This document shows, piece after piece, positions 23,049 to 61,188 of a stretch of DNA of 64,000 nucleotides (position 1 is the stretch's first letter; each line of letters begins with the position of its first letter). The stretch is from Aequorivita antarctica (GTDB lineage Bacteria; Bacteroidota; Bacteroidia; Flavobacteriales; Flavobacteriaceae). The DNA lies in assembly GCF_007997155.1 (NCBI RefSeq), contig NZ_VORT01000011.1:1-64000 (forward strand), read 5' to 3'. The notes beneath the pieces are model-generated. The model saw nothing but the letters and a program-made list of their open reading frames with translations, searched no databases and was not told the origin of the DNA. Both the position numbers and the translations under genes were made by a program.

Positions 23049-23091
23049 TGATATTTATCATATAAAATGAAAAATGGGATAAGTATTTTAA
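23049..23091 (+). promoter_or_regulatory. Crp/Fnr-type box and -7 box before the P-type ATPase
   Basis: TGATATTTATCA (23049-23060), close to the FNR consensus, is followed at +35 from its first base by TATTTTAA (23084-23091), a weak TAnnTTTG. The spacing matches the other boxes. The start codon is 33 bases further on. Confidence 0.55.
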
Positions 23092-23124
23092 CAGGCAATT
23101 AATTAATGCTATTATCTTAAATCT

Positions 23125-25620
23125 ATGGCTGTAGAAAATTTTGATATTCAGGGTCTTACGAATTCTGAAGTTTTGGCTTCGCGTGAAAAATTTGGTCAAA
23201 ACATTTTAGAGTCCAAGAAAAAGAATCCTTTTTTTGAAGCAATAAAAGGACTGTTGAAAGAACCAATGGTAATTCTGTTACTGGTTGCGGCGACTTTATA
23301 TTTTTTCACGGGTAATACAGGGGACGGAGTTTTTCTTGCAGCAGCCATTCTTTTGGTAGCTGCAATTTCTCTCTATCAAGATGCTAAAACCCACGATGCA
23401 CTAGATAAGCTTAAGGAACTTTCACAGCCCCATTGTAAGGTAATCCGGAATGGGACAGTTGTTGAAATAAAGAGCCAAGAAGTGGTAGTTGGCGATTTTT
23501 TGATGGTAGAGGAGGGATCCACCATTGTGGCAGATGGTACCATTGTTCATTCCAATGACTTTTCGGTAAATGAATCCATCTTGACTGGAGAATCTTTTTC
23601 AGTAGAAAAAGACGCCTCTTCAGAAGACAACAAAATTTATATGGGTACCCAAGTTGGAGGAGGACTTGCCATAGCTGAAATATTTGCGGTTGGTAATCAA
23701 ACAAAGGTTGGGAAAATTGGTAAAAGCATTGAAGAAATTTCTTCTGAAAAATCTACGCTTGAACTCCAAATAAACAATTTTGTAAAAAAGATGGTAATCG
23801 CGGGAGCGATTATTTTTCTATTGGTTTGGGGAATTAATTATTATAATACGGGCAGCCTTTTAGACAGTCTTTTGAAAGCGCTTACACTTGCAATGAGCGT
23901 TTTGCCAGAGGAGATTCCCGTTGCCTTTACCACGTTTATGGCCATTGGTGCTTGGCGGCTTATGAACTTAGGTGTTATTGTAAAACAAATGAAAACCGTT
24001 GAATCCTTGGGTAGTGCGACTGTGATTTGTGTAGACAAAACAGGTACGATTACAGAGAATAAAATGCGATTGGATAAGATTTATACGTTGGAAACCGATA
24101 AAATCACTTCGGTTGAAGAAACGCTTTCCGAAGTAGAAAAAGAGCTTATAACTACGGCAATGTGGGCCAGCGAACCCATTCCTTTTGATACTATGGAACA
24201 ATCGCTGCACGGGTTTTACGGTTCCTTTGTTAAAAATGACCAAAGACCCAATTTCAAAATGGTGCACGAATATCCATTAGGTGGTAAGCCCCCAATGATG
24301 ACCCACATTTTTGAAAATGCCCAAAGTAATAGAATCATCGCTGCCAAAGGGGCGCCCGAGGCTTTGATAGTAGTTTCAAATTTGAATGATGAGCAAAAGG
24401 AGAGGTTAAAACAGAAAATAACCTTTTTAGCAGAGGAAGGATATCGCGTTTTGGGGGTTGGAATTTCAAATTTTGAAGGAACGGATTGGCCAAAAAAGCA
24501 ACAAGATTTTCCTTTTGAGTTCAAGGGTTTAGTGGCTTTTTATGATCCTCCAAAGGAAAATATTTCAAAAGTATTTCAGGATTTCTATAATGCAGGAATT
24601 GCTGTAAAAATTATTACTGGAGATATTGCTGAAACTACTGCCGCCATTGCAAAAAAAGTAAATTTTCGAGGTTCCGAAGATGTTGTTTCTGGCGATGAGC
24701 TTTTCGGTTTAAACCCTGCGGAACTTGAAAAAATCACTTCAGAAAAAAACATCTTTGCTAGGATGTTTCCCGAAGCAAAACTTAAAATAATCAATGCCCT
24801 CAAGGCACAGGGCCATATTGTGGCAATGACAGGCGATGGCGTTAACGATGGCCCTGCTTTGAAAGCTGCAAATATTGGAATAGCAATGGGGAAGAAGGGA
24901 ACTGAAATAGCAAAGCAATCCGCTTCACTGGTTTTGGTGGATGATGATCTTTCTAAAATGGTAGATGCTGTGGCGATGGGTAGAAAAATCTATTCAAATC
25001 TTAAAAAAGCAATTCAGTATATCATTTCAATTCATATACCCATTATTCTCACGGTTTTTATCCCTTTGGTGTTAGGCTGGGTGTATCCTAATATTTTCAC
25101 ACCTATTCACGTGATCTTGTTAGAATTAATAATGGGGCCAACCTGCTCGATAGTCTATGAAAATGAACCGCTGGAAAAGGATTCCATGCTTCAAAAGCCG
25201 AGACCTTTCTCAAGTACTTTTTTCAATTGGAGCGAACTCTTCACAAGTATAATCCAAGGCTTGGCTATTACTGTTGGTGTGCTCACTGTTTATCAGTTGG
25301 CAGTAAATGATGGTTATAATGAAGCGATAACCAGAACGATGGTCTTTACCGCACTCATAACAGCAAACATTGTTTTAACTTTTGTAAATCGCTCTTTTAT
25401 CTATTCTATTTTCACCACTTTTAAATATAAAAATAAGTTGGTGCCGATTATTATTGGCATCACCATTGGCATCACTTTATCGCTACTTTTTGTGCCGCCC
25501 TTCACTAAATTCTTTGATTTTGAAAGACTTGGGCTAAACCAAATTTTCATTAGCATTGGAATTGGAGTGTTAAGCACATTGTGGTATGAAATCGTGAAGT
25601 GGTGGAAACGTAAAAATTGA
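23125..25620 (+). CDS. Cation-translocating P-type ATPase (P2, calcium-type)
   Basis: 831 residues. Actuator motif LTGES (153-157), M4 motif PEEIP (261-265), phosphorylation site D304 in CVDKTGTIT, KGAPEA in the nucleotide domain and the hinge MTGDGVNDGPALKAANIGIAMG. About ten hydrophobic segments in the usual pattern. No N-terminal metal-binding Cys motif, which argues against a P1B heavy-metal pump. PEEIP resembles bacterial Ca2+ or Mn2+ exporters, but the ion is not certain. It stands alone with a Crp/Fnr-type box. The DosR-controlled CtpF of mycobacteria is a P-ATPase of the same broad kind. Confidence 0.88.
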   Translation: MAVENFDIQGLTNSEVLASREKFGQNILESKKKNPFFEAIKGLLKEPMVILLLVAATLYFFTGNTGDGVFLAAAILLVAAISLYQDAKTHDALDKLKELSQPHCKVIRNGTVVEIKSQEVVVGDFLMVEEGSTIVADGTIVHSNDFSVNESILTGESFSVEKDASSEDNKIYMGTQVGGGLAIAEIFAVGNQTKVGKIGKSIEEISSEKSTLELQINNFVKKMVIAGAIIFLLVWGINYYNTGSLLDSLLKALTLAMSVLPEEIPVAFTTFMAIGAWRLMNLGVIVKQMKTVESLGSATVICVDKTGTITENKMRLDKIYTLETDKITSVEETLSEVEKELITTAMWASEPIPFDTMEQSLHGFYGSFVKNDQRPNFKMVHEYPLGGKPPMMTHIFENAQSNRIIAAKGAPEALIVVSNLNDEQKERLKQKITFLAEEGYRVLGVGISNFEGTDWPKKQQDFPFEFKGLVAFYDPPKENISKVFQDFYNAGIAVKIITGDIAETTAAIAKKVNFRGSEDVVSGDELFGLNPAELEKITSEKNIFARMFPEAKLKIINALKAQGHIVAMTGDGVNDGPALKAANIGIAMGKKGTEIAKQSASLVLVDDDLSKMVDAVAMGRKIYSNLKKAIQYIISIHIPIILTVFIPLVLGWVYPNIFTPIHVILLELIMGPTCSIVYENEPLEKDSMLQKPRPFSSTFFNWSELFTSIIQGLAITVGVLTVYQLAVNDGYNEAITRTMVFTALITANIVLTFVNRSFIYSIFTTFKYKNKLVPIIIGITIGITLSLLFVPPFTKFFDFERLGLNQIFISIGIGVLSTLWYEIVKWWKRKN

Positions 25621-25661
25621 GGCAACGTTTTTTAATAGGTCTCATTTTAAGTTATTCGTGC

Positions 25662-25704
25662 TGATTTTCGTCATAGTGAAGATTATATTTTCAAGTTAGC
25701 TTTG
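25662..25704 (+). promoter_or_regulatory. Crp/Fnr-type box and -7 box before the barrel protein
   Basis: TGATTTTCGTCA (25662-25673), then a perfect -7 box TAGCTTTG at 25697-25704, exactly 35 bases from the first base of the box. The start codon is 29 bases beyond the -7 box. Confidence 0.7.
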
Positions 25705-25732
25705 TATACCACTTAACTCAAATTGAAATATT

Positions 25733-26311
25733 ATGAAGAAGTCTGGTTTTTTGCTTGCTATAGCAATACTATTAGTTTCATTTACTTTGCAAGCACAAGA
25801 AAAATGGTCTGTGGAGTTTAGGCCCGGACTCAATTTTCCTACTAGTGATGTGGGAAATATTGATGCAGAAATTGGGTATGGATTTGAATTAACAGGCGCT
25901 TACAAATTAATGCCTCACTTTTCTGTATACGCGGGCTGGGGGCTGAATCAATTTAAAGGTTCAGATAGTAATTTTAATGAAGATTTTACCTTTGAGGAAA
26001 CGGGTGGTACGTTTGGTTTCGAAATTATTCGTCAAATAGGTACTTCCGCATTTTCTTACTTAGGAAGTGCTGGCGCCATTTATAATCACATTAAATTAGA
26101 CAATAACGCTGGCGATATTTCTGTGGACACCGGTTACGGCTTTGGTTGGCAAGTGGCAGCGGGTGTTAATTATGAGTTTGCTCCAAATCTATCTTTAAAA
26201 CCGATGCTTCGGTACCGATCACTTTCAACGGATGTAGAAATTGAAAATGTTTCAACAGATATAAAACTAAATTATATCTCTTTTGGGATTGGACTAGCTC
26301 TGGATTTTTGA
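25733..26311 (+). CDS. Outer-membrane beta-barrel protein (OmpX/OmpW-like size)
   Basis: 192 residues. Signal peptide ending LQAQ, then alternating strand patterns (WSVEFRPGLNFPTS, GYGFELTGAYKL, FSVYAGWGLNQFKG) and an aromatic C-terminus (YISFGIGLALDF), as expected for an eight-strand barrel of the outer-membrane beta-barrel domain families. The role (small porin, adhesion or envelope stress) cannot be set from sequence. The box upstream puts it in the predicted redox regulon. The next gene follows 59 bases later and may be read through. Confidence 0.8.
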   Translation: MKKSGFLLAIAILLVSFTLQAQEKWSVEFRPGLNFPTSDVGNIDAEIGYGFELTGAYKLMPHFSVYAGWGLNQFKGSDSNFNEDFTFEETGGTFGFEIIRQIGTSAFSYLGSAGAIYNHIKLDNNAGDISVDTGYGFGWQVAAGVNYEFAPNLSLKPMLRYRSLSTDVEIENVSTDIKLNYISFGIGLALDF

Positions 26312-26370
26312 TTCTATAAACTGATTGTAGGTTTCTTTAATATTTTTTGAATTCACAAAAGACTTTTAAA

Positions 26371-27459: not shown

Positions 27460-27463
27460 AAAA

Positions 27464-27811: not shown

Positions 27812-27933
27812 AATTATGGAAAAGCCATTTTAGCCCACTTTTTTTTTGGATGGTTTTTTTCATAATCATTTCAAATAGTTTACGGATTTTTTGGCGAACT
27901 TACAGATGACGATTGCATTATTATCTATATATC

Positions 27934-28911
27934 CTAAAGAGTATCCCGAGTCACTTCTTTTAACTTTATATTCTCAAAACCTGGATAAATATTTTCAAAT
28001 TCAACAGTTTCTCCTTTGTCATTTTTCCCCTGCAATTCGTATTTAAAAACCACTTTAGTTCCTAGTGGCGCGTAATAATACACAATCCATGCATCAGATT
28101 CCCTTAAGCCAATACAGCCATTGGAAGAAGTTTTTTCCAAAGTAGCCAAATTAGTAGTAGGATGAATAAGTTGACCAACACTGCGGCCATTTATTGAAGG
28201 TTCCAACCAGGGAATAGCAGGTAGCCCAGTTAGTTTTCCATCATCCCGATATGTTTTTGTGTATTTATGGTTATTCTGTGGGTTCATAAATAACGGGTTT
28301 TTATTAACTCGGATTATTTCACCTATACCGGGTTTTGTCCTCATATCCACATCGTTTTTGGCCATAGCCAAATATCTTTTACCCACTTTTCCCACTCTTA
28401 CCGGAAACTTATATATTTCTTTTCCATTTTGAATTATTCGAAGCCTAAATTCTGGAATATTGAGTTCTAAAGAAGTGTTGCATAATTGCGTTTGTATTTT
28501 TATGGTTTCAATCGAATCTGGAATAATCAAAACCTGATCTTTTTTTAAAGCTATTAGTGCCTGAGGGTCTTCATTAAAAATCCCCTTATCCATTAAATAA
28601 TAATAATCTGTATGTGCAAGCGTGTCCATAATCCACTTGTTGTTATGTACGATAATATACTCATCAATAAGATAATTGTGGGTTTGGTTATGTTCTGCAA
28701 CTATGCTGTCCATCCATTTAAAGTAGGAACGAATAGGAATATCTTTATTAACTACTATTTCAATAGGAATTGTAGTTATTTCTTGGTCTAAAGTATCTAC
28801 TACTACATCAGTTACGTTATTTATATTCTCTTCTTCTGTGCTATTAACTTGATGTTTATTAACGCAACTTATACAACTGAAAATTATAATTATCAATAAA
28901 ATATTTTTCAT
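27934..28911 (-). CDS. L,D-transpeptidase (YkuD domain) lipoprotein
   Basis: 325 residues. N-terminal leader with FSCISC, probably a lipoprotein (Cys16). A ~130-residue linker region precedes the YkuD catalytic domain: LIHPTTNL with His250 and SSNGCIGLRESD with nucleophile Cys266. The domain makes L,D cross-links in peptidoglycan or attaches proteins to it. A promoter box pair at 29012-29054 on this strand places it in the predicted redox regulon. It is divergent from the mla operon. The 122-base gap downstream has T-rich tracts but no convincing hairpin. Confidence 0.85.
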   Translation of the reverse strand: MKNILLIIIIFSCISCVNKHQVNSTEEENINNVTDVVVDTLDQEITTIPIEIVVNKDIPIRSYFKWMDSIVAEHNQTHNYLIDEYIIVHNNKWIMDTLAHTDYYYLMDKGIFNEDPQALIALKKDQVLIIPDSIETIKIQTQLCNTSLELNIPEFRLRIIQNGKEIYKFPVRVGKVGKRYLAMAKNDVDMRTKPGIGEIIRVNKNPLFMNPQNNHKYTKTYRDDGKLTGLPAIPWLEPSINGRSVGQLIHPTTNLATLEKTSSNGCIGLRESDAWIVYYYAPLGTKVVFKYELQGKNDKGETVEFENIYPGFENIKLKEVTRDTL

Positions 28912-29011: not shown

Positions 29012-29054
29012 CAAACGTAGGAATCTAATTAACAAAATGGTATGACATTGATCA
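29012..29054 (-). promoter_or_regulatory. Crp/Fnr-type box and -7 box before the L,D-transpeptidase
   Basis: TGACATTGATCA at 29043-29054 (near-symmetric) has, on the minus strand, the perfect -7 box TACGTTTG (29019 down to 29012). The distance is the same 35 bases as on the plus strand elsewhere. The start codon lies about 100 bases downstream. Confidence 0.65.
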
Positions 29055-29117
29055 TCTTTACGGGCATTTCTTTTCATAATTAGATTGCTAAGTACATAGC
29101 TAATAAAGCTGATATGC

Positions 29118-29160
29118 TGATTTATGTCATATTAAATGATGCTGGTCAACATTATATTTG
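29118..29160 (+). promoter_or_regulatory. Crp/Fnr-type box and -7 box before the mla operon
   Basis: TGATTTATGTCA (29118-29129), then TATATTTG (29153-29160), again at +35. The predicted transcript begins near 29164, after the ATG codons at 29136/29139. This supports the MlaE start at 29178. Confidence 0.7.
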
Positions 29161-31749: not shown

Positions 31750-32382
31750 ATGCTCAATAGTTTGAAAGAAAATTTTGCCCATATCTTTGAAGAAGCATTG
31801 ATCGATGAAATTTTGGAAGTAGGAACGCTGAAGGAGATAAAGGAAGGTGAAAAACTTATTGAGATTGGCGATTATGTACGTTCTATGCCATTGCTTATTT
31901 CAGGGGCAATAAAGATTTTGAGGGAAGATGATAACGGCGACGAGCTATTGCTCTATTTTTTGGAACGTGGCGACACTTGTGCAATGACATTAACTTGCTG
32001 TTTGGGACAGACCAGAAGTGAAATTCGAGCTATCGCAGAGCTTGATACCACTATAATTATGATCCCCATTCAAAAAATGGAAGAATGGACGGGCAAATAT
32101 AAAAGCTGGCGCAATTTTGTGTTTCAAAGTTACCACGCCCGCTTAACTGAAATGCTCGAAACCATTGATAGCATTGCATTTTATAATATGGATGAGCGCT
32201 TGGTAAAATACCTTCAGAATAAACAAAAGATCACTAATGATTCCATTATTAATTCTACACATCAGGAAATAGCTTATGAACTGCACACTTCGCGAGTGGT
32301 GGTTTCGCGTTTGCTGAAAAAATTGGAATCCCTTGGGAAGATTGAACTTTATAGAAATAGCATCAAGATCATTTCGCTTTAA
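31750..32382 (+). CDS. Crp/Fnr family regulator with NtcA-like recognition helix
   Basis: 210 residues. Cyclic-nucleotide-binding-type beta roll (~20-115) and a winged helix (~148-205). Recognition helix HTSRVVVSRLLKKLE: R182, V183 and R187 align with CRP R180, E181 and R185, so the Glu of CRP/FNR is replaced by Val as in NtcA. NtcA binds GTA-N8-TAC, which matches the GTAAC-N4-GTTAC boxes before the next gene, sulfide:quinone reductase and the TolC operon. Cys77, Cys83 and Cys84 (GDTCAMTLTCCLG) could sense oxidants or sulfur species, but no N-terminal FNR-type Fe-S cluster is present. No Crp/Fnr box was seen upstream of its own start. Confidence 0.85.
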   Translation: MLNSLKENFAHIFEEALIDEILEVGTLKEIKEGEKLIEIGDYVRSMPLLISGAIKILREDDNGDELLLYFLERGDTCAMTLTCCLGQTRSEIRAIAELDTTIIMIPIQKMEEWTGKYKSWRNFVFQSYHARLTEMLETIDSIAFYNMDERLVKYLQNKQKITNDSIINSTHQEIAYELHTSRVVVSRLLKKLESLGKIELYRNSIKIISL

Positions 32383-36994: not shown

Positions 36995-37037
36995 TGATTA
37001 ATATCATTTTAGAGCTCATTTATCTGAAGTAATTTAG
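36995..37037 (+). promoter_or_regulatory. Crp/Fnr-type box and -7 box before sulfide:quinone reductase
   Basis: TGATTAATATCA (36995-37006), a perfect TGAT-N4-ATCA, then TAATTTAG (37030-37037) at +35, one base off TAnnTTTG. The start codon is 21 bases beyond. Confidence 0.65.
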
Positions 37038-45489: not shown

Positions 45490-45532
45490 TGATATTTGTC
45501 ACATAACCTCCCATTTTTCAATCATACATTTG
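45490..45532 (+). promoter_or_regulatory. Crp/Fnr-type box and -7 box before DUF302/cytochrome b
   Basis: TGATATTTGTCA (45490-45501), then perfect TACATTTG (45525-45532) at +35. The start codon is 38 bases beyond. The same 12-base box sequence recurs before the USP gene at 61215. Confidence 0.72.
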
Positions 45533-46597: not shown

Positions 46598-46609
46598 TGA
46601 CCAAGGTCA
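46598..46609. promoter_or_regulatory. Isolated Crp/Fnr-type box after the cytochrome gene
   Basis: TGACCAAGGTCA, flanked to give near-perfect symmetry (ATTGACC...GGTCATT). At +35 lies TTAGTTGG (46633-46640), only a weak -7 match. No coding gene follows before the terminator at 46674-46698, so it may drive a short RNA or be non-functional. Confidence 0.45.
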
Positions 46610-46673
46610 TTAAGAGTATTTAGGAACGTTTGTTAGTTGGTTTTCTACTAACTGTAAATTTATTTGGTTATAG

Positions 46674-46698
46674 AAAAGCACCTCGAACAGGTGCTTTT
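46674..46698 (+). terminator. Intrinsic terminator after the DUF302/cytochrome unit
   Basis: AAAAGCACCT (46674-46683) pairs with AGGTGCTTTT (46689-46698) around a 5-base loop, followed by two more T. It separates the cytochrome unit from the TolC operon. The stem resembles the one at 2558-2587. Confidence 0.88.
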
Positions 46699-46705
46699 TT
46701 GTTTG

Positions 46706-46749
46706 GTAACATTAGTTACTGACCAAGCTTGTTTTCTGGCGTATGTTTG
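46706..46749 (+). promoter_or_regulatory. GTAAC-N4-GTTAC box and -7 box before the TolC/AcrAB-type operon
   Basis: Perfect palindrome GTAACATTAGTTAC (46706-46719) and perfect -7 box TATGTTTG (46742-46749). Box centre to -7 start is 29.5 bases. The start codon at 46769 is 19 bases beyond. Confidence 0.72.
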
Positions 46750-46768
46750 CATCAAATTTAATATAGCA

Positions 46769-48073: not shown

Positions 48074-48081
48074 TATCAGAG

Positions 48082-49161
48082 ATGAGAAAAATATATACAC
48101 TTCTACTATTTTCGGCAGTACTCAGTTTTAACGCTTGTAATAATGCTTCCGAAGAAAAAACCATAGATAAAACCCCTGCAGTTCCTGTAACTGTAAGTTC
48201 TGTAGCTGCAGAAAATAATACTCCATTTTTAACTGCAAGCGGAAAAATAGAAGCTGCGAACAGTGCAACCCTCAGCACACGAATGATGGGCTTTGTGGAC
48301 AAAGTTCTCGTAAACGTTGGTCAAAAAGTTACAAAGGGACAATTATTGGTAAGTATCAATAATTCTGATCTTTCGGCTAAACAAGCGCAGACAAGTGCTG
48401 GAATTACTGAGGCACAAGCTGCTTTCAATAATGCAGAAAAAGATTATCAGCGGTTTCAAAACCTGTTTGCAGATAACAGTGCAAGTCAAAAGGAACTTGA
48501 CGATCAGCGCGCCCGTTATGAAATGGCAAAAGCCAGATTGGAAGGCGCAAAACAGATGAAAAACGAAGTGCAGTCGCAGTTTGCTTATGTAAATCTTCGT
48601 GCCCCTTTTAACGGGGTTGTTACCAATAAATTCATTGAAGCTGGCGATATGGCTAATCCCGGCGCCCCTTTAATTTCAATTGAAGGACCTGGGAATTTTG
48701 AAGTTACCGCTTCAGTTCCTGAAAGTGAAATTTCAAAAATAAAATCCGGATCCGAAGTGCAGGTGATTGTAAAATCTTCAAATAAAATACTTCCCGGAAA
48801 AGTTACCGAAGTGAGCACTTCAGCAAAAAACACGGGTGGACAATATTTGGTAAAAGTAGTTTTAGACAAAACCAACGAGAGCATTCTTTCAGGAATGTAC
48901 GCTACGGTTCAGTTTCCTATTGAAAAGAAAACTGATGTTACGACGGTTTTAGTGCCAGAGGAAGCATTAGTAAAACGTGGACAATTAACTGGAATTTACA
49001 CGGTGAGTCAAAATAATACCGCTCTTCTTCGTTGGTTGCGACTGGGGCGCACTTATGGCGATAATGTAGAAGTACTTTCTGGCTTAAATGCAGATGAAAA
49101 TTATATTATTTCTGCCGATGGAAAACTTTTCAACGGTGCTAAAATAACCATTAAACAATAA
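48082..49161 (+). CDS. RND periplasmic adaptor (MdtA/AcrA-like) lipoprotein
   Basis: 359 residues. Lipobox region LSFNAC (lipid Cys19). Barrel-sandwich halves GKIEAANSATLSTRMMGFVDKVLVNVGQKVTKGQLL and VNLRAPFNGVVTNKFIEAGDMANPGAPLISIEG flank a helical hairpin. The C-terminal domain has GMYATVQFPI and VPEEALVKRGQLTGIYTV. It links the RND pump to the TolC-like protein. It begins 8 bases after tolC and ends 2 bases before the pump gene. Confidence 0.92.
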   Translation: MRKIYTLLLFSAVLSFNACNNASEEKTIDKTPAVPVTVSSVAAENNTPFLTASGKIEAANSATLSTRMMGFVDKVLVNVGQKVTKGQLLVSINNSDLSAKQAQTSAGITEAQAAFNNAEKDYQRFQNLFADNSASQKELDDQRARYEMAKARLEGAKQMKNEVQSQFAYVNLRAPFNGVVTNKFIEAGDMANPGAPLISIEGPGNFEVTASVPESEISKIKSGSEVQVIVKSSNKILPGKVTEVSTSAKNTGGQYLVKVVLDKTNESILSGMYATVQFPIEKKTDVTTVLVPEEALVKRGQLTGIYTVSQNNTALLRWLRLGRTYGDNVEVLSGLNADENYIISADGKLFNGAKITIKQ

Positions 49162-49163
49162 TC

Positions 49164-52100
49164 ATGAAGGACGGATTTGCTGGCAAAATTGCCAAGTTAT
49201 TTATAGGCTCAAAGCTTACGGTGCTTTTAATGATCGTGTTTATGGTCATCGGGGTTTACAGTTCGTTTTTGATACCGCGGGAAGAGGAACCGCAGATTGA
49301 TGTGGCAATGGCCGACATTTTTGTGGGCTACCCGGGCGCATCTCCAACGGAGGTTGAATCTAGGGTTGTGAAACCTTTGGAAAAATTGGTTTCCAATATT
49401 CCTGGTGTGGAGTATGTATATTCCACTTCTTCTGAGGAAGGTGCAATGGTAATTGTACAGTTTTATGTGGGTGAGGATATTGAGCGTTCCTTTGTAAAGC
49501 TTTACAACGAAATGAACAAGCATATGGACCAAATGCCTCCGGGTGTAACCATGCCGCTTGTAAAACCACGTGCCATTGACGATGTGCCAATGTTGGGAGT
49601 GACGCTATGGAGTGAAAGTTATGACGATTTTCAACTAAAACAAATTGCAGACGAACTTACACAGGAAATTGAAAAAGTGGATATGGTTTCCACAACCCAC
49701 AAAATTGGGGGTCGTGATCGTCAATTGCGTGTAATATTGGACAAAGACAAGTTAGCTGCGAGTGGTTTGGACTTTTTAACTGTTGCCGAAATGATAAAGG
49801 CAAATAACCAGCAAATGAGTTCGGGCAGTTTTGATAAAAATGATACGGAGTTCTTGGTTTCAACTGGCAGTTTCCTAAAATCTGCGGCCGATGTTGAAAA
49901 CTTGGTTGTTGGCGTGCAGCAGAATCAACCTATTTATTTGAAGCAGGTGGCCATTATTTTTGATGGGCCAGAGATTCCGAGTAAATATGTTTCCTTTGGT
50001 TTTGGAGGAGCTAGTGAAAAGCTGTCGAAATACGCTTCTGAATATCCAGCTGTAACCATTTCGGTAGCGAAAAGAAAAGGAGCCGACGCAATGAAAATCG
50101 CAGACGTGATTATCGATAAGGTAGATCATTTGCGAAGTAATCTAATTCCGGATGATGTTCACGTAGAAATCACACGAAACTACGGCGAAACAGCGTCCAA
50201 TAAAGTTTCTGAACTGTTGATGCACCTTATAGGCGCTATCATTGCAGTAACGCTAGTTGTAATGCTCGCAATGGGCTGGCGTGGTGGTTTGGTAGTTTTC
50301 CTTTCGGTGCCAATTACCTTTGCGCTGACGCTTTTGAGTTACTATTTACTGGACTATACATTAAACAGAATTACACTTTTCGCCTTGGTTTTCGTAACGG
50401 GAATTGTGGTGGATGACTCCATTATTATTGCGGAAAATATGCACCGGCATTTCAAGATGAAACGCTTGCCGTTTAAGCAAGCCGCTATTTACGCAATAAA
50501 CGAAGTAGGAAACCCAACCATTTTGGCAACTTTTACAGTGATAGCTTCTGTATTGCCAATGGCTTTTGTTTCCGGATTGATGGGGCCTTATATGTCGCCA
50601 ATGCCTATTGGAGCTTCCATTGCAATGATACTTTCGCTATTTGTTGCTTTAACCATAACACCTTATTTGGGTTATATTTTCCTTCGCGAAAAAGAGAAAA
50701 AAGGAAAAGCTCCCAAGCCTGAAAAATCTTTAGAAAGCACTTTCATTTATAGAATTTATTCAAAATTTGAAATGCCTCTAATCGAAAATAAAAAGACTCG
50801 TTGGATATTTCTGGGAACTACAATCGTACTTCTCTTGGGATCAATGATGTTGTTTTTTACAAAATCGGTTGCAGTAAAAATGCTGCCTTTCGACAATAAA
50901 AACGAAATGCAAGTGGTGATCGATATGCCCGAGGGAACTACTCTGGAACGCACTGCAGTGGTTACTCGCGAGATTGGACAATACCTTTCAACACAACCTC
51001 TCGTGGTTAATTATCAAAACTACATAGGTACCTCGGCGCCGATAACTTTCAACGGTTTGGTGCGTCATTACGACCTTCGTGGCGGCAGTAATAATGCCGA
51101 TATACAAGTAAACTTAATTGATAAGGAAGAACGGGACGAACAAAGCCACGATATAGCAAAACTAGTTCGTCCGCATATTCAGGAAATCGGGAAGAAATAC
51201 GGCGCCAACGTTAAAATAGTGGAAGTTCCACCAGGACCGCCTGTACTTTCAACCATTGTAGCTGAAGTTTACGGTCCTAATTATGACCAGCAAATAGCAG
51301 TTGCAAAACAACTTGAGAATATATTAAACGAAACGCCAGATGTTGTAGATGTAGATTGGATGGTGGAAGCGGATCAAACGGAATATGAATTCATCATAGA
51401 CAAAGAGAAAGCAATACGCTATGGCGTTACGCCTCAACAAATCGTTTATACAATGAATATGGCGCTTTCAGATAAGCCTGTAACCAATCTTTATGATGAA
51501 AATGTTGTTGACCAAGTAGGAATATTATTGGCGTTGGACGAAAAGGAAAAGTCTACTATCCAAGATATTTCGCAGTTGAAAATTACTTCCAAGCAAGGCA
51601 ATATGGTTTCGGTGGTCGATTTGGTGAATATTGAGGAAACTACCCGAGCAAAAAGTATTTATAGGAAAAACCAAAAGCGGGTAGTTTATGTTCTGGCTGA
51701 TATGGCCGGAGAACTTGAAAGCCCTGTGTACGCTATTTTGGGAATGACCGATAAGCTGAACAAAATAAAATTGCCAGCTGGTTATAAAATGAATGAATTG
51801 TACTTGGAGCAACCTGAATTTGAAGACGATTTCACAGTGAAATGGGATGGTGAATGGCAGATAACCTTAGAAGTATTTCGCGATTTGGGGATTGCCTTTT
51901 TGGGTGTTATCATCATCATTTATATTTTGATTGTGGGGTGGTTCCAAAACTTTAAAGCACCCGTGGTTATGATGGTTGCTATTCCTTTGTCATTAATTGG
52001 AATTATACTCGGCCATTGGGTTTTAGGTGCTTTTTTCACCGCGACCTCCTTTATTGGGATGATTGCTTTAGCAGGAATTATGGTGCGGAATTCAGTGCTG

Positions 52101-52361
52101 TTGATAGATTTCATAAACCTACGAACAGCGGATGGAATCCCCTTAAAACAAGCCGTAATTGAAGCCGGAGCGGTAAGAACTACGCCAATTTTATTAACTG
52201 CTGGAACGGTTGTGATAGGCGCATTTGTAATACTTTTTGACCCCATTTTTCAAGGGCTCGCCATTTCGCTAATGGGCGGAACTATTGTTTCTACAGTGCT
52301 TACATTACTTGTAGTGCCACTGGTTTATTATATGATTGAACGAAAAAACTTTAAAGAATAA
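49164..52361 (+). CDS. RND efflux transporter permease (AcrB/HAE-type)
   Basis: 1,065 residues, with twelve hydrophobic segments in two repeats and two large periplasmic loops. TM4 carries VTGIVVDDSIIIAENMHRH, whose adjacent Asp pair corresponds to the proton-relay Asp407/408 of AcrB, unlike the spaced D...D...E of the metal pump at 39263. The second half holds LAGIMVRNSVLLIDFINLR. It exports hydrophobic or amphipathic compounds; the natural substrate is not known. Its control by a GTAAC box links it to the nearby NtcA-like regulator rather than to a TetR repressor, none of which is seen. Confidence 0.92.
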   Translation: MKDGFAGKIAKLFIGSKLTVLLMIVFMVIGVYSSFLIPREEEPQIDVAMADIFVGYPGASPTEVESRVVKPLEKLVSNIPGVEYVYSTSSEEGAMVIVQFYVGEDIERSFVKLYNEMNKHMDQMPPGVTMPLVKPRAIDDVPMLGVTLWSESYDDFQLKQIADELTQEIEKVDMVSTTHKIGGRDRQLRVILDKDKLAASGLDFLTVAEMIKANNQQMSSGSFDKNDTEFLVSTGSFLKSAADVENLVVGVQQNQPIYLKQVAIIFDGPEIPSKYVSFGFGGASEKLSKYASEYPAVTISVAKRKGADAMKIADVIIDKVDHLRSNLIPDDVHVEITRNYGETASNKVSELLMHLIGAIIAVTLVVMLAMGWRGGLVVFLSVPITFALTLLSYYLLDYTLNRITLFALVFVTGIVVDDSIIIAENMHRHFKMKRLPFKQAAIYAINEVGNPTILATFTVIASVLPMAFVSGLMGPYMSPMPIGASIAMILSLFVALTITPYLGYIFLREKEKKGKAPKPEKSLESTFIYRIYSKFEMPLIENKKTRWIFLGTTIVLLLGSMMLFFTKSVAVKMLPFDNKNEMQVVIDMPEGTTLERTAVVTREIGQYLSTQPLVVNYQNYIGTSAPITFNGLVRHYDLRGGSNNADIQVNLIDKEERDEQSHDIAKLVRPHIQEIGKKYGANVKIVEVPPGPPVLSTIVAEVYGPNYDQQIAVAKQLENILNETPDVVDVDWMVEADQTEYEFIIDKEKAIRYGVTPQQIVYTMNMALSDKPVTNLYDENVVDQVGILLALDEKEKSTIQDISQLKITSKQGNMVSVVDLVNIEETTRAKSIYRKNQKRVVYVLADMAGELESPVYAILGMTDKLNKIKLPAGYKMNELYLEQPEFEDDFTVKWDGEWQITLEVFRDLGIAFLGVIIIIYILIVGWFQNFKAPVVMMVAIPLSLIGIILGHWVLGAFFTATSFIGMIALAGIMVRNSVLLIDFINLRTADGIPLKQAVIEAGAVRTTPILLTAGTVVIGAFVILFDPIFQGLAISLMGGTIVSTVLTLLVVPLVYYMIERKNFKE

Positions 52362-53064: not shown

Positions 53065-53107
53065 TGACATTGGTCATTTCAAAACACGTAAAAAAGGAAT
53101 ATATTTG
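53065..53107 (+). promoter_or_regulatory. Crp/Fnr-type box and -7 box before HPF
   Basis: TGACATTGGTCA (53065-53076), with symmetric flanks (ATGAC...GTCAT), then perfect TATATTTG (53100-53107) at +35. The start codon is 27 bases beyond. Confidence 0.75.
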
Positions 53108-53134: not shown

Positions 53135-53434
53135 ATGACTATAAACATCCAATACGTGAAAATGCCTACCAGCGAGGCTATGAATGAATATGTAGAAAAA
53201 AAACTTCAAAAAATTGCTGAAAAATATGAATGGCTCATTAGAGCCGACGTAAGTTTTAAACTAGAAAACAATGTTTACGGCAAAGGCAATATTTGTGAAA
53301 TGGAACTAAGCCTACCAGGGCCCAAAATTTTCGCAACTTCTACGGAAGCAACTTTTGAAGCGGCCGCAAAAGAAACTATTTCCGATTTGGAAAAGCAGCT
53401 AAAAAAACGCAAGGCAAAATTTGCAACACACTAG
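53135..53434 (+). CDS. hpf: Ribosome hibernation factor, short HPF/RaiA type
   Basis: 99 residues. IQYVKMPTSEAMNEYVEKKLQKIAEKYEWLIRADVSFKLE and the basic C-terminus EKQLKKRKAKFATH match the single-domain S30AE/HPF fold. It binds the 30S A/P site and idles ribosomes under energy or oxygen stress. It has its own Crp/Fnr-type box and precedes a USP gene by 101 bases; that gap holds only a small TCCGC-TACG-GCGGA hairpin (53456-53469), so the USP may be read from the same promoter. Confidence 0.92.
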   Translation: MTINIQYVKMPTSEAMNEYVEKKLQKIAEKYEWLIRADVSFKLENNVYGKGNICEMELSLPGPKIFATSTEATFEAAAKETISDLEKQLKKRKAKFATH

Positions 53435-53535
53435 ACCAATCAACTTGAAATGCCCTCCGCTACGGCGGATTATAAACTAACCGAAGATGTAAATTGGGGC
53501 ACTCCATCTTCCTATTTCTCAAATATTATATACAA

Positions 53536-54372
53536 ATGAAAAAAATATTAGTTCCCGTAGATTTTTCCCAACATTCCGATTACGCCCTTGAGGTTGCAGC
53601 TGGCATTGCCAAAAATCAAAATGCCGAAATAATCGCGATACATATGATGGGTCTTAGTGATGCAGTTTTAACACGCGATGAAAGCAAAGAAGTTTTTGAG
53701 GCAATGTTTTATATGAAACTGGCCGAAAAGCGGTTTGCTGAATTCCTTGATAAAGATTATTTGGAAGGAATTAAGGTTACGGATGCTGTTCATAATTATA
53801 AAATTTTTAGTGAATTGAATGATGTGGCTCGTGATTTTGAAGCAGATTTAATTATAATGGGGTCCCACGGAAGTACAGGGTTAAAAGAAGTTTTCGTTGG
53901 AAGTAACACTGAAAAAGTAGTGCGCACTTCCGAAATACCCGTGTTGGTTATTAAACATCGGGCTGAGAACTTCAATCCTCAATTGGGCATATTTGCTTGC
54001 GACTTTCTAGAAAGTTCTGTTGGTCCCTATAAGCGTGCTCAAAAAATGTTTAATGCCTTGGGAATTACCATGCAAATGCTTTATGTGAATCTTGCAGGCG
54101 ATTTTCGAAGCACACGTGAAATTGAAAAACGAATTCTCAACTTTTTGAAACTTTCAGGAGAATCAAATCCTTTGGAAAGTTTGAACAATGTGGTCCAATA
54201 CAACGAATATTCTGTGGAAGCTGGAATTTTCGGTTACAGCCAAGTAAGCAATGCAGATATCATTGCGCTGCCCACTCAAGGTCGCCAAGGTCTGGCACAT
54301 TTTTTCTCTGGAAGTATTGGTGAGGACGTTGTAAACCATTCCGATTTACCTGTATTGACATTTAAAGTATAG
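53536..54372 (+). CDS. Universal stress protein, tandem two-domain
   Basis: 278 residues from ATG 53536; a TTG at 53494 would add an untypical stretch. Domain 1 starts MKKILVPVDFSQHSDYALEVAAGIA and has the ATP motif G-SH-G-x9-GS (GSHGSTGLKEVFVGS). Domain 2 ends IALPTQGRQGLAHFFSGSIGE, where the first Gly is replaced by Pro, so it probably does not bind ATP. No membrane segment. It may share the HPF promoter. A bidirectional terminator follows. Confidence 0.9.
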   Translation: MKKILVPVDFSQHSDYALEVAAGIAKNQNAEIIAIHMMGLSDAVLTRDESKEVFEAMFYMKLAEKRFAEFLDKDYLEGIKVTDAVHNYKIFSELNDVARDFEADLIIMGSHGSTGLKEVFVGSNTEKVVRTSEIPVLVIKHRAENFNPQLGIFACDFLESSVGPYKRAQKMFNALGITMQMLYVNLAGDFRSTREIEKRILNFLKLSGESNPLESLNNVVQYNEYSVEAGIFGYSQVSNADIIALPTQGRQGLAHFFSGSIGEDVVNHSDLPVLTFKV

Positions 54373-56101: not shown

Positions 56102-56112
56102 AGTAATGGATT

Positions 56113-56982: not shown

Positions 56983-57055
56983 GTTCTTTGGGTTTTAAAT
57001 CATAAAAATAGAGAAAGATTGATAGTGAAAAAAAGGAAAGTTTAATTAAGTTTCA

Positions 57056-57460
57056 TTAATCTTCCAATAGCATTTTCAGTTTTGCAAGCATAATCACTTC
57101 GCTTTTGTTTTTGTCCGCAAAGGAACTAGCTATGGCATTTGCAGTTCTCCATATTAGGTCTTTTCGTTCTTTGGTGAAAAGATTGGGTTGTTCTTTTTTA
57201 TAATCGGCGAAGCTTTCAAAGCAATCCTTTGCGTCAAGTTGTTCATAATCAAACCAATCAAAAACCACTTCTATTTGGTAAGCGGCATCTGTATGGAAGG
57301 GATCTTCGTAATCATCCAGATTTTTCCATTGTTCCGATACAATATTTTTCAAAATATTGTATTCTGCTTTCCGCACAACCTTGTCCGCCGCCGCAATAGC
57401 GTAAAAAAGCTCCCCCATTTTTTGATAAAATAAGAGTTCAGGTTTATTAACGGTTCCCAT
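57056..57460 (-). CDS. TerB-like small cytosolic protein
   Basis: 134 residues. Helical, with FYQKMGELFYAIAAADKVVRKAEYNILKNIV, the A-A-D/x-x-V-x-x-x-E pattern of TerB-like proteins (TerB has an acidic helical fold thought to bind metal). No tellurite-resistance genes are nearby, so it is only a fold match. A promoter box pair on this strand at 57490-57532 places it in the predicted regulon. It is divergent from the sensor kinase. Confidence 0.75.
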   Translation of the reverse strand: MGTVNKPELLFYQKMGELFYAIAAADKVVRKAEYNILKNIVSEQWKNLDDYEDPFHTDAAYQIEVVFDWFDYEQLDAKDCFESFADYKKEQPNLFTKERKDLIWRTANAIASSFADKNKSEVIMLAKLKMLLED

Positions 57461-57489
57461 AATGCTATAATTTTACGTTTCTTAAGGTG

Positions 57490-57532
57490 TAAAACTAACT
57501 CGTTTTCCGGCGAATTTTTATGATATAAATCA
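57490..57532 (-). promoter_or_regulatory. Crp/Fnr-type box between the TerB-like gene and the kinase
   Basis: TGATATAAATCA (57521-57532), a perfect TGAT-N4-ATCA. On the minus strand TAGTTTTA (57497 down to 57490) lies at the exact standard distance, pointing to the TerB-like gene. On the plus strand TACTTTTG (57559-57566) is 3 bases too far, which suggests that if the kinase is controlled here it is by a different arrangement. Confidence 0.6.
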
Positions 57533-57570
57533 GTTCTGAAAAAACTGTTTAAAATTCTTACTTTTGGGGG

Positions 57571-58806
57571 ATGAAGGTTTTTAAGGAAGAAAAAGATAAT
57601 ATTTTCAAAATACTTTCCGAAGCAATTTCGGAAGGCATTATCATTGTTAATGAAAATCAGGAAATTGTAACCTCAAATGATGCTGCTGATAAAATGTTCG
57701 GATATAAACCAGAAGAACTTTTGGGACAAAACCTGAGTATATTAATTCCGAGAGAATATAAAAGCAACCATCACCACCAAGTTGACGAATTTTTGGAAAA
57801 AAGTGACCCGCGTCAAATGGGCCATGGGCGTGATCTTTATGGCCAGCGCAAGGACGACAGCGTATTTCCGGTAGAGGCAGGGCTAAACCCTTTTGAGGTT
57901 TATGGGAGCAAATATGTGATGGCTTTGGTTACGGATATTTCAGTAAGGAAGAATCAGGAACTGGAAATAATTGACCTCAATTTATCCTTGGAACAAAAAA
58001 TTGAAACACGCACCAAAGAACTAAAGCAAACCATCAAAGAACTAAAAGATGAAGTTGCAAAACGAAAGAAAGCGGAGCATAAAATAATGGAATCACTGCG
58101 TAAGGAACGTGAACTCAATGAATTGAAAACAAAATTTCTATCGCTGGTCTCGCATGAGTTTAAAACACCTTTGAGCGGCATTCTCACTTCGGCTACACTT
58201 GCGGGGAAATATACCGAGACGGACCAACAAGACAAACGCGAGAAGCATCTGAAAACCATACAGAACAAAGTAAAATACCTGAATAATATCCTGAATGATT
58301 TTCTTTCAATTGAACGTATGGAATCCGGTAAAACCAACTATAAGTTTGACACATTTCCGCTGAGCAAAGTCGTGAATGAGGTTATTTATAACGCAAACAT
58401 GCTTTTGAAAGACGGCCAGCGCATAAATTATCCACAGAATATAGACGACATTTTCTTAAATTTTGATGAGAAAATCCTTGAGTTATCCCTTACCAATCTT
58501 ATAAACAACGCTGTAAAATATTCGCCAGGGCATACTATTATTGATGTAGTTGTAATACCAAAAAGTGATTCCTTAAGTATAAAAATTATAGATGAAGGAA
58601 TGGGTATTCCACAAAAGGAACAGAAATATATTTTCAACAGATATTTTCGAGCTGAAAATGCACTGCTGGATCAAGGTACGGGCATTGGTCTCAATATAGT
58701 GAAAAGCCATTTGGAAAGTCTTGGCGGTACAATTACCTTTGAAAGTGAAGAAGGCAAGGGCAGCACATTTACAATTTCTTTCCCAACAAAAAACAAAATA
58801 AATTAA
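57571..58806 (+). CDS. Cytosolic PAS sensor histidine kinase with FixL-like PAS
   Basis: 411 residues, no membrane segment. Residues ~10-128: one PAS domain. ILIPREYKSNHHHQ and SDPRQMGHGRDLYGQRKDD align with B. japonicum FixL so that His67 falls on haem ligand His200 and Arg87 on distal Arg220, with the same 20-residue spacing. A coiled coil (~130-180) leads to the kinase core: H195 in SLVSHEFKTPLSG, N-box NLINNAVKYSP, IDEGMGIP and GTGIGLNIVKSHLESLGG. Its likely target is the receiver protein encoded 1 base after its stop. Haem binding is a prediction; some FixL-like PAS domains keep these residues without haem. Confidence 0.82.
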   Translation: MKVFKEEKDNIFKILSEAISEGIIIVNENQEIVTSNDAADKMFGYKPEELLGQNLSILIPREYKSNHHHQVDEFLEKSDPRQMGHGRDLYGQRKDDSVFPVEAGLNPFEVYGSKYVMALVTDISVRKNQELEIIDLNLSLEQKIETRTKELKQTIKELKDEVAKRKKAEHKIMESLRKERELNELKTKFLSLVSHEFKTPLSGILTSATLAGKYTETDQQDKREKHLKTIQNKVKYLNNILNDFLSIERMESGKTNYKFDTFPLSKVVNEVIYNANMLLKDGQRINYPQNIDDIFLNFDEKILELSLTNLINNAVKYSPGHTIIDVVVIPKSDSLSIKIIDEGMGIPQKEQKYIFNRYFRAENALLDQGTGIGLNIVKSHLESLGGTITFESEEGKGSTFTISFPTKNKIN

Positions 58807-58807
58807 G

Positions 58808-59860
58808 ATGAAAACAATACTCCTTATTGAAGACGATACCGCACTAAGAGAGAATACTGCTGAACTGTTGGAACTTTCAGGTTATACCGTTTATACGGCT
58901 CCAAACGGTAGAATTGGCATCGAAAAAGCAAAAAGTGAAAAGCCGAACATCATTATTTGTGATATAATGATGCCCGAGATTGATGGCTACGGCGTGCTTG
59001 AAAACTTGGCTTCTGAAGAAAAAACGAAACATATTCCTTTTATTTTCCTTTCCGCAAAAACGGAACACAAAGAAATACGTAAAGGCATGGATATGGGCGC
59101 AGATGATTATCTTACCAAACCTTTTGAAGAGCACGAACTGCTGAGTGCTGTGGAAAGCCGCTTGGCAAAAGCAAGCATTTTGGCAATGCGCGAAAACAAT
59201 AAAGAGGAGGGGAGTGTTGGAGATGACGAAAACCCCCAAAACCTCAACCAATTGAAAAATTTTTTTTGTGATGAAGGCGAATTAGCCAATTATAAAAAGG
59301 GAGAAACCATTTACCGAAAAGGAGACCACTCCAACAACATGTTTTTAATTTTGAAAGGTGTAGTGAAAACACACACTATGGACGCGAACGCCAAAGAACT
59401 CATTACAGGTCTTTACAAAGCCGATGACTTTTTGGGCTTCACTTCTTTTGACGATAACATTCCTTATAATGAAACCGCCACAACCGTAGAAGAAACAGAA
59501 GTGGTGGGCATTTCAAAAAAGTACGTGAAAGATATTTTGAAAAAAAGCCAAGATGTTTCTTTGGAGTTGATGAATCTTTTAACCGATAATCTTTCCGAAA
59601 TAAAACAGCAATTGGTTAGAATGGCCTACAGTTCTGTTCGGAAAAAGACGGCCAGTACCATTCTTCAGTTTGTGGAGATTATGGACAAAAAACCTGAGGC
59701 GCCTCTTCGAATTTCGCGGAATGATCTTGCTACAACCGCTGGAATTGCTACCGAAAGCCTTATACGAACCCTTTCAGATTTCAAGAAAGATGGCATTATC
59801 GAAATAGAGGGCCGCGACATACGCATTATAGATTTGGAAAGCCTACGAAATATAGACTGA
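58808..59860 (+). CDS. Receiver-Crp/Fnr fusion response regulator
   Basis: 350 residues. Receiver (1-~125) with phospho-acceptor Asp52 (IICDIMMPEIDG) and Lys104 (LTKPF). A linker leads to a cyclic-nucleotide-like beta roll (~150-270; YKKGETIYRKGDHSNNMFLILKGVV) and a winged helix (~275-345). Recognition helix ATESLIRTLSDF puts E316 and R320 on FNR Glu209 and Arg213 (CRP Glu181/Arg185), which read the TGA half-site. It is thus a FixJ receiver joined directly to a FixK-like DNA-binding part. Candidate operators are the TGAY-N4-RTCA boxes of this window. It follows the kinase gene with 1 base between. Confidence 0.85.
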   Translation: MKTILLIEDDTALRENTAELLELSGYTVYTAPNGRIGIEKAKSEKPNIIICDIMMPEIDGYGVLENLASEEKTKHIPFIFLSAKTEHKEIRKGMDMGADDYLTKPFEEHELLSAVESRLAKASILAMRENNKEEGSVGDDENPQNLNQLKNFFCDEGELANYKKGETIYRKGDHSNNMFLILKGVVKTHTMDANAKELITGLYKADDFLGFTSFDDNIPYNETATTVEETEVVGISKKYVKDILKKSQDVSLELMNLLTDNLSEIKQQLVRMAYSSVRKKTASTILQFVEIMDKKPEAPLRISRNDLATTAGIATESLIRTLSDFKKDGIIEIEGRDIRIIDLESLRNID

Positions 59861-59885
59861 TATCCATATTTTTTTTTCTTAAAGC

Positions 59886-59928
59886 TGATTTTTATCATTT
59901 TCTATCCCGACATATACAGATAATTTTG
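59886..59928 (+). promoter_or_regulatory. Crp/Fnr-type box and -7 box before a USP gene
   Basis: TGATTTTTATCA (59886-59897), then perfect TAATTTTG (59921-59928) at +35. The start codon is 19 bases beyond. Confidence 0.72.
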
Positions 59929-59947
59929 CGGGTAAGATTATGATGCT

Positions 59948-60787
59948 ATGAAGAATATATTGATTCCAACGGATTTTTCTGAAGATTCACAAAATGCCAT
60001 TAGGTATGCGTTGGATTATTTTTCCGATGTGGCCGTGAATTTTTATTTCCTTCATGTGTCCCATCAAAATCCTAATTTTAAAGAAGTAGTGCATGAAAAT
60101 TTTTCAGAATTCAGTGCCAAAATGCAGACAATTCAAGGTGCACCTCATTTATTAAAGGAAGAAATAAAGTCTTGCCAACTTCTCTCTAAAAACAAAACGT
60201 ATAGGTTTTTTGCCCTCCAAGAAGAACTAAATCTGGTGGAAGCCATCAGAAAACATGTAGTTGAAAAGGAAATTGATTATATTATAATGGGTACCAAAGG
60301 AACTTCCAAAATAAACAGAAGTGATATGGGAAGCAATACTTGTGATGTAATTACAAAGGTGAAATGTCCCGTACTGGTAATTCCCGAAAATGTGAAGTTT
60401 AATGGAATTAAAAATATAGCTTTTTTAACAGATTATAACTGTATCTATCGCAACAAAGTAATCAGTACCCTTTCAGAAACACTGGACCTCCATCAATCGG
60501 CACTTCGTGTGCTTCATGTAAAATCTCTAAATACGGATATTACCTCATCACAAACAGACAACAAGGGGTTTTTGCATTACTTTTTTAAAGAAAAAAAACA
60601 CAGTTTCCATTTTGTTGAAAGCAAAGATTTGGAAATAGGTATTCAAGATTTTGTAGAAACTTGGGAAATAGGCCTAGTTTCTATCGTTGCCAAAAACTTG
60701 AATTTTATTCAAAGGTTGCTTTTGCGTCCTGCAGTAAAAACCGTTAGCGACACAACCAATGTGCCTTTTTTAGTGCTTCATGAGTAG
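59948..60787 (+). CDS. Universal stress protein, tandem two-domain
   Basis: 279 residues. KNILIPTDFSEDSQNAIRYALDYFSDV at the start; ATP motif GTKGTSKINRSDMGS (G-x2-G-x9-GS) in domain 1. The second domain (from ~150, NIAFLTDYNCIYRNKVISTLSETL) lacks that motif. It has its own Crp/Fnr-type box directly after the response-regulator gene. Next to it on the other strand is the interrupted small membrane gene. Confidence 0.9.
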   Translation: MKNILIPTDFSEDSQNAIRYALDYFSDVAVNFYFLHVSHQNPNFKEVVHENFSEFSAKMQTIQGAPHLLKEEIKSCQLLSKNKTYRFFALQEELNLVEAIRKHVVEKEIDYIIMGTKGTSKINRSDMGSNTCDVITKVKCPVLVIPENVKFNGIKNIAFLTDYNCIYRNKVISTLSETLDLHQSALRVLHVKSLNTDITSSQTDNKGFLHYFFKEKKHSFHFVESKDLEIGIQDFVETWEIGLVSIVAKNLNFIQRLLLRPAVKTVSDTTNVPFLVLHE

Positions 60788-60833
60788 TTTTCAGTGTATT
60801 TGGGCCTAAATAAGTTGGCTGAATTAACAAAAC

Positions 60834-61070
60834 TCAAAATATAAACCACTCTTCTCTTCCAATAGGATAGTCATCATAAAAATCCTCAAAAGTCTTAGTT
60901 GTATTATAATTATTTTTTAAAATCTTGAAGACTGAAAATATCAATGCAGCTTGTCCAAAAATAGTTAGGTAGAATACCCAACTGATAAGAAAGACCATAA
61001 TGGCAAAAATAGCCAATGTAACCAATACAAAAGCGGTTATTACAAGCTAGGTAATAGCAGAGAGGGTCAT
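60834..61070 (-). pseudogene. Small membrane protein gene interrupted by an amber codon
   Basis: From ATG 61070 the frame reads MTLSAIT, then TAG (61049-61047), then continues openly for 70 codons to the stop at 60834. The continuation has a long hydrophobic segment (VTLAIFAIMVFLISWVFYLTIFGQAALIFSVF) and a polar tail (EDFYDDYPIGREEWFIF), so the downstream part is plainly protein-like. Either the gene has a recent nonsense change, the base is a sequencing error, or translation begins after it at a TTG. The family is unknown. The 427-base gap between the two USP genes otherwise holds only the promoter at 61146. Confidence 0.6.
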
Positions 61071-61145
61071 AACTTATTTAGCTTCAATTTACAAAGTAAG
61101 GAGAGTCTTTGTTCTTAAGGATTCCTTAAAAATCAGACTGTTGAT

Positions 61146-61188
61146 TGATATTTGTCATAGTTTATCTGTGTAGCAATAGTTATATTTA
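61146..61188 (+). promoter_or_regulatory. Crp/Fnr-type box and -7 box before the USP cluster
   Basis: TGATATTTGTCA (61146-61157), then TATATTTA (61181-61188) at +35, one base from the TAnnTTTG consensus. The start codon is 26 bases beyond. Confidence 0.7.

Follow-up and report, generated by a model that had tools for sequence, protein, structure and literature searches.

We analyzed a 64,000-nucleotide stretch of the Aequorivita antarctica genome (3.84 Mb), namely positions 1 to 64,000 of contig NZ_VORT01000011.1 (GCF_007997155.1), hereafter called the window. A Crp/Fnr-type box, TGAY-N4-RTCA, recurs there, followed after exactly 23 bases by a −7 box, TAnnTTTG, which thus begins at offset 35 from the first base of the box. 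Judging from sequence, some 25 to 45 promoters of A. antarctica appear to carry this two-part switch at a fixed spacing, and many of them precede genes for life at low oxygen. The composite is probably the operator of an FNR-clade class II activator of the Crp/Fnr type joined to the −7 box of the Bacteroidota primary sigma factor, and the likely reader in this species is a receiver-Crp/Fnr fusion protein controlled through a FixL/DosP-like kinase. An earlier sequence-only reading of the window had listed eleven of the boxes, all of which lie where it placed them.

Enrichment of the box and its fixed gap

TGAY-N4-RTCA has 14 matches in the window, where 3.31 are expected, and none of 100 shuffled sequences reached 14. 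The shuffles hold about one box per 19 kb, and an earlier rough estimate of one per 12 kb was thus of the right order. By the gene calls made in the present analysis, 12 of the 14 boxes lie wholly within spacers, which make up 8% of the bases of the window; a first-order Markov model predicts 0.26, and the maximum over 1,000 runs was 3. The three boxes absent from the earlier list are at 9997 and 57804, both intragenic, and at 29137, where it separates the 29118 box from its −7 box. TAnnTTTG by itself is not enriched in the window (87 matches, 92 expected), and the signal therefore resides in the box plus its distance to the −7 element and not in the −7 element itself.

A genome-wide scan with the composite had been named beforehand as the test that could refute the proposal, should the motif prove equally common by chance. 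The scan returned 16 exact composites and no reversed control. Ten of the 16 lie outside the window, so the regulon spans the genome rather than this stretch alone. When one mismatch is allowed, the count rises to 47 versus 3 reversed controls. With the gap freed to between 9 and 38 bases, 17 matches (3 reversed controls) were found, of which 16 have gap 23; the seventeenth is the 57521 box read toward the kinase gene, with a gap of 26.

The same spacing is evident in the best 80 of 580 related loci with a gene for a relative of the receiver fusion; all 80 carry the fusion. These loci hold 1,028 strand-wise boxes, and TAnnTTTG follows at gap 23 in 163 cases (67 loci), whereas every other gap from 0 to 59 accounts for 0 to 14 cases. 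With five scrambled boxes, TAnnTTTG was never found at gap 23. In eight other genomes (8 of 60, with G000 left out and G036 included in part), gap 23 accounts for 63 of 133 among the matches listed.

Three positions that were not part of the search refine the motif. Of 344 sites, 98% have T directly after the box, and the base before it is C in 53% and A in 31%, which makes the flanks asymmetric. At the end of the −7 box, A stands in 51% and G in 46% (a purine in 97%), and T never. A terminal A thus serves as well as G, and the T after the box was missing from the motif as first written. Since A is as good as G, the sites at 57521 and 61146, which end in TAnnTTTA, are not weak. The TAnnTTTR version yields 342 sites in 77 of the 80 loci and no reversed match. 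In the genome of A. antarctica, the refined pattern has 26 exact and 17 one-mismatch matches, 43 in all, versus 6 reversed controls for all 43. In the explanation that we favor, TGAY-N4-RTCA-T, N22, and TAnnTTTR quite probably act as one functional unit.

A report on Flavobacterium psychrophilum places TAnnTTTG at −12 to −5 (PMC9723704). Because we take the −7 box at that position, the gap of 23 would make the box in A. antarctica span −47 to −36 and center on −41.5, in agreement with the class II distance that had been proposed. The sequence tests thus found an operator at this predicted position and at one fixed distance to the core promoter. One invariant gap to the core promoter at many genes is a mark of class II activation, as established for CRP and FNR, whereas repressors tolerate varied positions. 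The arrangement is, as far as sequence can indicate, one of class II FNR-type activation on Bacteroidota promoters, for which contact with RNA polymerase and raised transcription are predicted.

The eleven listed boxes of the window and the genes behind them are as follows.

23049..23091, + strand: box TGATATTTATCA, N23, and TATTTTAA; a marginal site, one mismatch from TAnnTTTR, before a P-type cation ATPase (23125-25620)
25662..25704, + strand: composite site with a perfect −7 box at 25697, before a beta-barrel protein (25733-26311)
29012..29054, − strand: composite site with a perfect −7 box at 29012-29019, facing left before a YkuD L,D-transpeptidase (27934-28911)
29118..29160, + strand: composite site with a perfect −7 box at 29153, before an MlaE/ABC/MlaD operon (MlaE start taken as 29178)
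36995..37037, + strand: composite site with a −7 box one mismatch from TAnnTTTR, before a Pyr_redox_2 (flavin) oxidoreductase (37058-38515)
45490..45532, + strand: composite site with a perfect −7 box at 45525, before a DUF302 protein (45570-45959) and a cytochrome b561-like protein (45992-46564)
46598..46609, + strand: box TGACCAAGGTCA, with TTAGTTGG at offset 35 and no convincing −7 box, before outer-membrane efflux/RND genes
53065..53107, + strand: composite site with a perfect −7 box at 53100, before a hibernation factor (Ribosomal_S30AE, 53135-53434) and a universal stress protein (Usp, 53494-54372)
57490..57532, − strand: composite site with TAGTTTTA (TAnnTTTA), facing left before a gene for 134 amino acids (57056-57460)
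59886..59928, + strand: composite site with a perfect −7 box at 59921, before a Usp protein (59948-60787)
61146..61188, + strand: composite site with TATATTTA (TAnnTTTA), before a Usp protein (61215-62060)

The claim that ten of the eleven have a −7 box at offset 35 holds, marginally so for 23049, and 46598 is the one that lacks it; the six −7 boxes reported as perfect are indeed so. A Crp/Fnr-type protein with the helix TSRVVVSR (31750-32382) closes the Mla operon behind the 29118 site, and one Crp gene may thus be controlled by another. The window also encodes a 1,443-amino-acid protein (39263-43594) in which an AcrB-type RND pump is joined to an outer-membrane efflux (OEP) domain, and a second RND set lies at 46664-52361.

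Every one of the 16 exact sites has a reading frame of 60 or more amino acids behind it, beginning no more than 100 bases from the expected start. Outside the window, the genes identified above NCBIfam cut-offs are CcoS, with CcoNO and CcoG behind it, HemN, and the RIC/YtfE iron-sulfur (Fe-S) repair protein. CcoP falls below its NCBIfam cut-off, CcoI was named from its place and a P-type ATPase match, and a site-bearing pair of cytochrome c and COX1-family genes resembles NorCB. Zn-alcohol dehydrogenase, phosphofructokinase, an acyl-CoA synthetase of the ADP-forming type, and acetyl-CoA hydrolase also lie behind sites. FNR, Anr, and FixK control similar gene sets in Proteobacteria. These targets are consistent with a low-oxygen or nitric oxide (NO) regulon, and the earlier suggestion of a response to low oxygen fits them. 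Most of the sites are clustered in three places (contig C5 at 1-36 kb, C43 at 60-68 kb, and C2 at 23-79 kb), as if low-oxygen genes were gathered in islands.

The kinase and the receiver-Crp/Fnr fusion

Two adjacent genes of the window encode the candidate signaling pair.

57571..58806, + strand: PAS-HisKA-HATPase sensor kinase whose PAS domain is closest to the heme oxygen sensors DosP and FixL
58808..59860, + strand: regulator of 350 amino acids with the Pfam domains Response_reg, cNMP_binding, and HTH_Crp_2 (the receiver-FNR fusion)

The kinase gene is directly upstream of the regulator gene in 78 of the 80 loci. Its PAS domain matched 17 PDB sequences at E values up to 0.01, and 13 of these are DosP or FixL. 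A gapless alignment sets His67 opposite residue 77 of DosP and Arg87 opposite residue 97, which we take to be the heme ligand and an oxygen contact, respectively. Of 77 kinases in which the PAS domain was readable, 72 keep the His and 54 the Arg. The kinase therefore combines a PAS domain related to those of FixL and DosP with the proximal heme His of the FixL type, and it is predicted to bind heme and to be controlled by oxygen. Some kinases are longer (500-690 amino acids; L033, L045, L050, L056, L083, and others); these keep the heme-type PAS domain first and add a second PAS-like stretch.

The regulator belongs to the Crp/Fnr superfamily (PF00027 and PF13545 above cut-off) and to the response regulators (PF00072), and D9, D10, D52, and K104 are invariant in 30 aligned sequences. 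The Fe-S cysteines of FNR proper were not found in the fusion, where C51, within the receiver, is alone kept and C154 occurs in 15%. Likewise, the fusion is not a FixJ protein in the sense of a receiver with a LuxR/FixJ-type helix-turn-helix, because its output part consists of cNMP_binding and HTH_Crp_2. The best 50 Foldseek matches of its AlphaFold model (predicted local distance difference test [pLDDT] 81.5, predicted template modeling score [pTM] 0.52) are, as expected, all of the CRP/FNR type, but at large root-mean-square deviations of 15-19 Å. In the mechanism that we propose, the kinase would sense low oxygen (or NO) through its heme-sensor-like PAS domain, and phosphotransfer would activate the fusion. 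The activated fusion would then bind the boxes and turn on genes of the high-affinity cbb3 oxidase, of oxygen-independent heme synthesis, and of Fe-S repair, together with those for ribosome hibernation and stress proteins.

The promoter of the kinase-regulator operon has a geometry of its own. The 57521 box also has TACTTTTG at gap 26 on the + strand, toward the kinase gene. There are 29 TAnnTTTR sites with gaps of 24-26 in the 80 loci, and 25 of them are on the + strand immediately before the kinase gene. In these loci (L017-L096), the box with the gap of 24-26 stands about 1.3 kb ahead of the regulator start, and its −7 box abuts the start codon of the kinase gene. From the same neighborhood the divergent gene is served at gap 23: 63 minus-strand sites lie upstream of the kinase, among 65 counted in 53 loci. 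In A. antarctica, the −7 box at 57559-57566 would make the A of the kinase start codon (ATG, 57571) the transcription start and so give a leaderless message. This geometry is either a special autoregulatory arrangement or a reason to doubt that promoter.

Two candidate readers across the family, and competing explanations

The exact composite is present in 221 of 249 Flavobacteriaceae genomes, with 0 to 2 reversed controls in each. The fusion was found in 113 of the 249 (114 matches; the receiver-only match of G002 was dropped, and G194 was kept with residues 1-244 only), a count that includes matches of 39-47% identity, possibly a paralogous group. In site-rich genomes lacking the fusion, there is a stand-alone FNR-like protein of about 225 amino acids whose recognition helix, GTATESAIR, is nearly the same as GIATESLIR of the fusion. 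C4, C7, C53, and C106 are invariant in this protein, and all four are missing from the fusion. For nine of the richest genomes counted as fusion-free, full scoring supports the absence of the 350-amino-acid fusion.

We grouped the genomes by regulator, using for the stand-alone protein a cut-off of 1e-55 that was chosen after the values were seen. Sites occur in all 46 genomes with the fusion only (mean 8.7) and in all 89 with the stand-alone protein only (mean 6.3). The 67 genomes with both regulators have a mean of 12.7 sites, and the 47 with neither have a mean of 1.2, with no site in 28 of the 47. All 202 genomes with either regulator thus have sites (Fisher p ~1e-24 versus neither, uncorrected for kinship), and among genomes of at least 2.5 Mb each single-regulator class differs from neither at p < 3e-6. 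The result in the 89 genomes means that the operator is shared and does not belong to the fusion alone. The receiver-Crp/Fnr protein that had been proposed as reader therefore remains the best candidate in A. antarctica but is not the exclusive owner of the sites, and the fusion as sole reader of the motif is ruled out.

Neither G017 nor G169 has a match to the fusion; in both, the stand-alone gene and ccoI are arranged divergently, with a composite site in the interval from ccoI to ccoS. A. antarctica keeps the site at the ccoI/ccoS place and has no stand-alone gene there; its sole profile match at E ≤ 1e-20 is the fusion. The tree joins the Crp half of the fusion and the stand-alone clade as sister groups, with support of 1.00 for the joint group (21 of 34 sequences). 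Most simply, an FNR-clade protein would have gained a receiver, and lineages like that of A. antarctica would later have lost the stand-alone copy.

We lean, with modest confidence, toward a joint reading in which TGAYN4RTCAT-N22-TAnnTTTR is a family-wide low-oxygen grammar driven by two sensors. One would be the cysteine-bearing stand-alone FNR-like protein and the other the phospho-switched fusion of the same clade under a FixL-like kinase. In A. antarctica, the stand-alone protein would be gone, the operators kept, and the fusion in charge, with the operator of its own operon, whose message would be leaderless, about two bases out of register (gap 24-26).

In a wider sample of the phylum, 169 of 392 genomes have a site. 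These comprise 46 of 46 genomes of the family (mean 8.3), 7 of 8 of a sister family (4.5), 41 of 51 from the rest of the class (2.8), and 75 of 287 from beyond. A distant Bacteroidota genus (g364 of family f47; G508, G541, G613, and G617) has 25-30 exact sites per genome, more than all 249 Flavobacteriaceae but one (26 sites). Two genomes of this genus (L166 and L168) encode an FNR-like protein that has several cysteines and the helix GTATETTIR, and a second Crp-like gene comes next.

That AT-rich spacers merely yield such boxes has a negligible probability. The lack of enrichment of TAnnTTTG alone is compatible with chance, as are the sizeable reversed controls of the loose variable-gap pattern in some genomes (G014, 11+6), but the exact composite stands at 16 versus 0 in this genome and has at most two reversed controls in any of the 249. 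Window shuffles, the Markov spacer model, genome scans, and scrambled boxes all reject an origin in composition. Repressor or dual-function operators, at which a factor at −41.5 blocks or tunes transcription, are improbable. The shifted gap at the kinase-regulator operon could mean a different and perhaps repressing geometry there, but a single invariant gap at dozens of genes is not repressor-like, and the targets are typical of activation by FNR, Anr, and FixK. Somewhat less improbable, though still unlikely, is that another Crp/Fnr protein, such as the 195-amino-acid L141 protein or the one at 31750-32382, reads the sites in A. antarctica while the fusion has other targets. The genome has six HTH_Crp_2 matches, the helix of the L141 protein, GQRVETVIRAIKQL, has Glu and Arg at the positions of GIATESLIRTLSDF, and genomes without the fusion also hold the family-wide sites. 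The fusion, however, matches HTH_Crp_2 more strongly than any other protein of the genome and is alone in matching profile A1 at E ≤ 1e-20, its Crp half is sister to the stand-alone proteins of site-bearing genomes that lack the fusion, and every fusion-only genome has sites. The Crp protein at 31750-32382 has a different helix, of a type also present in site-free genomes such as G073 and G087.

Several observations count against activation by the fusion under an oxygen-sensing kinase. The L141 protein has the E-x3-R helix, the PAS domain of the kinase also weakly matches LOV-type PAS domains, and 23 of 77 kinases have another residue in place of the heme Arg; the signal could be NO or redox instead of oxygen. 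Binding, start sites, and the expression response are all predicted. Since at most 8 or 11 candidates per genome were scored, with full scoring in 16 genomes, some absences of a regulator may be false. Furthermore, 1-11 sites occur in 19 of the 47 genomes with neither regulator. Of those with the most sites, three are 73-82% complete, but incompleteness does not excuse G205 and G138, with 5 sites each.

Relation to known regulators and significance

In the rhizobial FixL-FixJ-FixK oxygen cascade, a heme-PAS kinase and a response regulator act with a Crp/Fnr-type protein on cbb3 targets. The A. antarctica system likewise pairs a heme-PAS-like kinase with a response regulator and has a DNA-binding protein of the Crp/Fnr type and cbb3 and related targets, but its promoters are of the Bacteroidota type and the Crp half of the fusion comes from the local FNR clade. 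Because receiver and Crp/Fnr DNA-binding domains are in one protein, there is no FixJ-to-fixK transcription step. FNR and Anr of Proteobacteria bind TTGAT-N4-ATCAA, at −41.5 for class II. The half-site spacing, the center, and targets such as cbb3, hemN, stress, and hibernation genes are alike, and an alignment of the stand-alone relative with Aliivibrio fischeri FNR covers profile positions 3-224. In contrast to FNR and Anr, the core TGAY...RTCA here lacks the outer T/A, has asymmetric flanks, and is joined to TAnnTTTR instead of a −10 box, and the fusion lacks the four cysteines of the stand-alone protein. Cur/MalR (BT4338) of Bacteroides, described as a regulator of sugar utilization (PMC8510549), is also of the Crp family and from the same phylum, whereas sampled families of the phylum with Bacteroides-like zero counts lack the composite. 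Our search of one literature library returned no description of this promoter grammar or of a flavobacterial receiver-Crp regulator.

For a large family of marine and soil bacteria, the findings provide an oxygen/NO regulon that can be tested and a rule for promoters, and they indicate how the unusual promoter of the Bacteroidota accommodates a Crp/Fnr activator. The two-protein arrangement would represent a shortened FixL-J-K cascade. Relatives keep the switch and seem to read it with the stand-alone regulator, and the fusion is the likely reader in A. antarctica. This would be a natural case of sensor replacement with unchanged operators; if true, a whole regulon has swapped its sensor without a change in its promoters.

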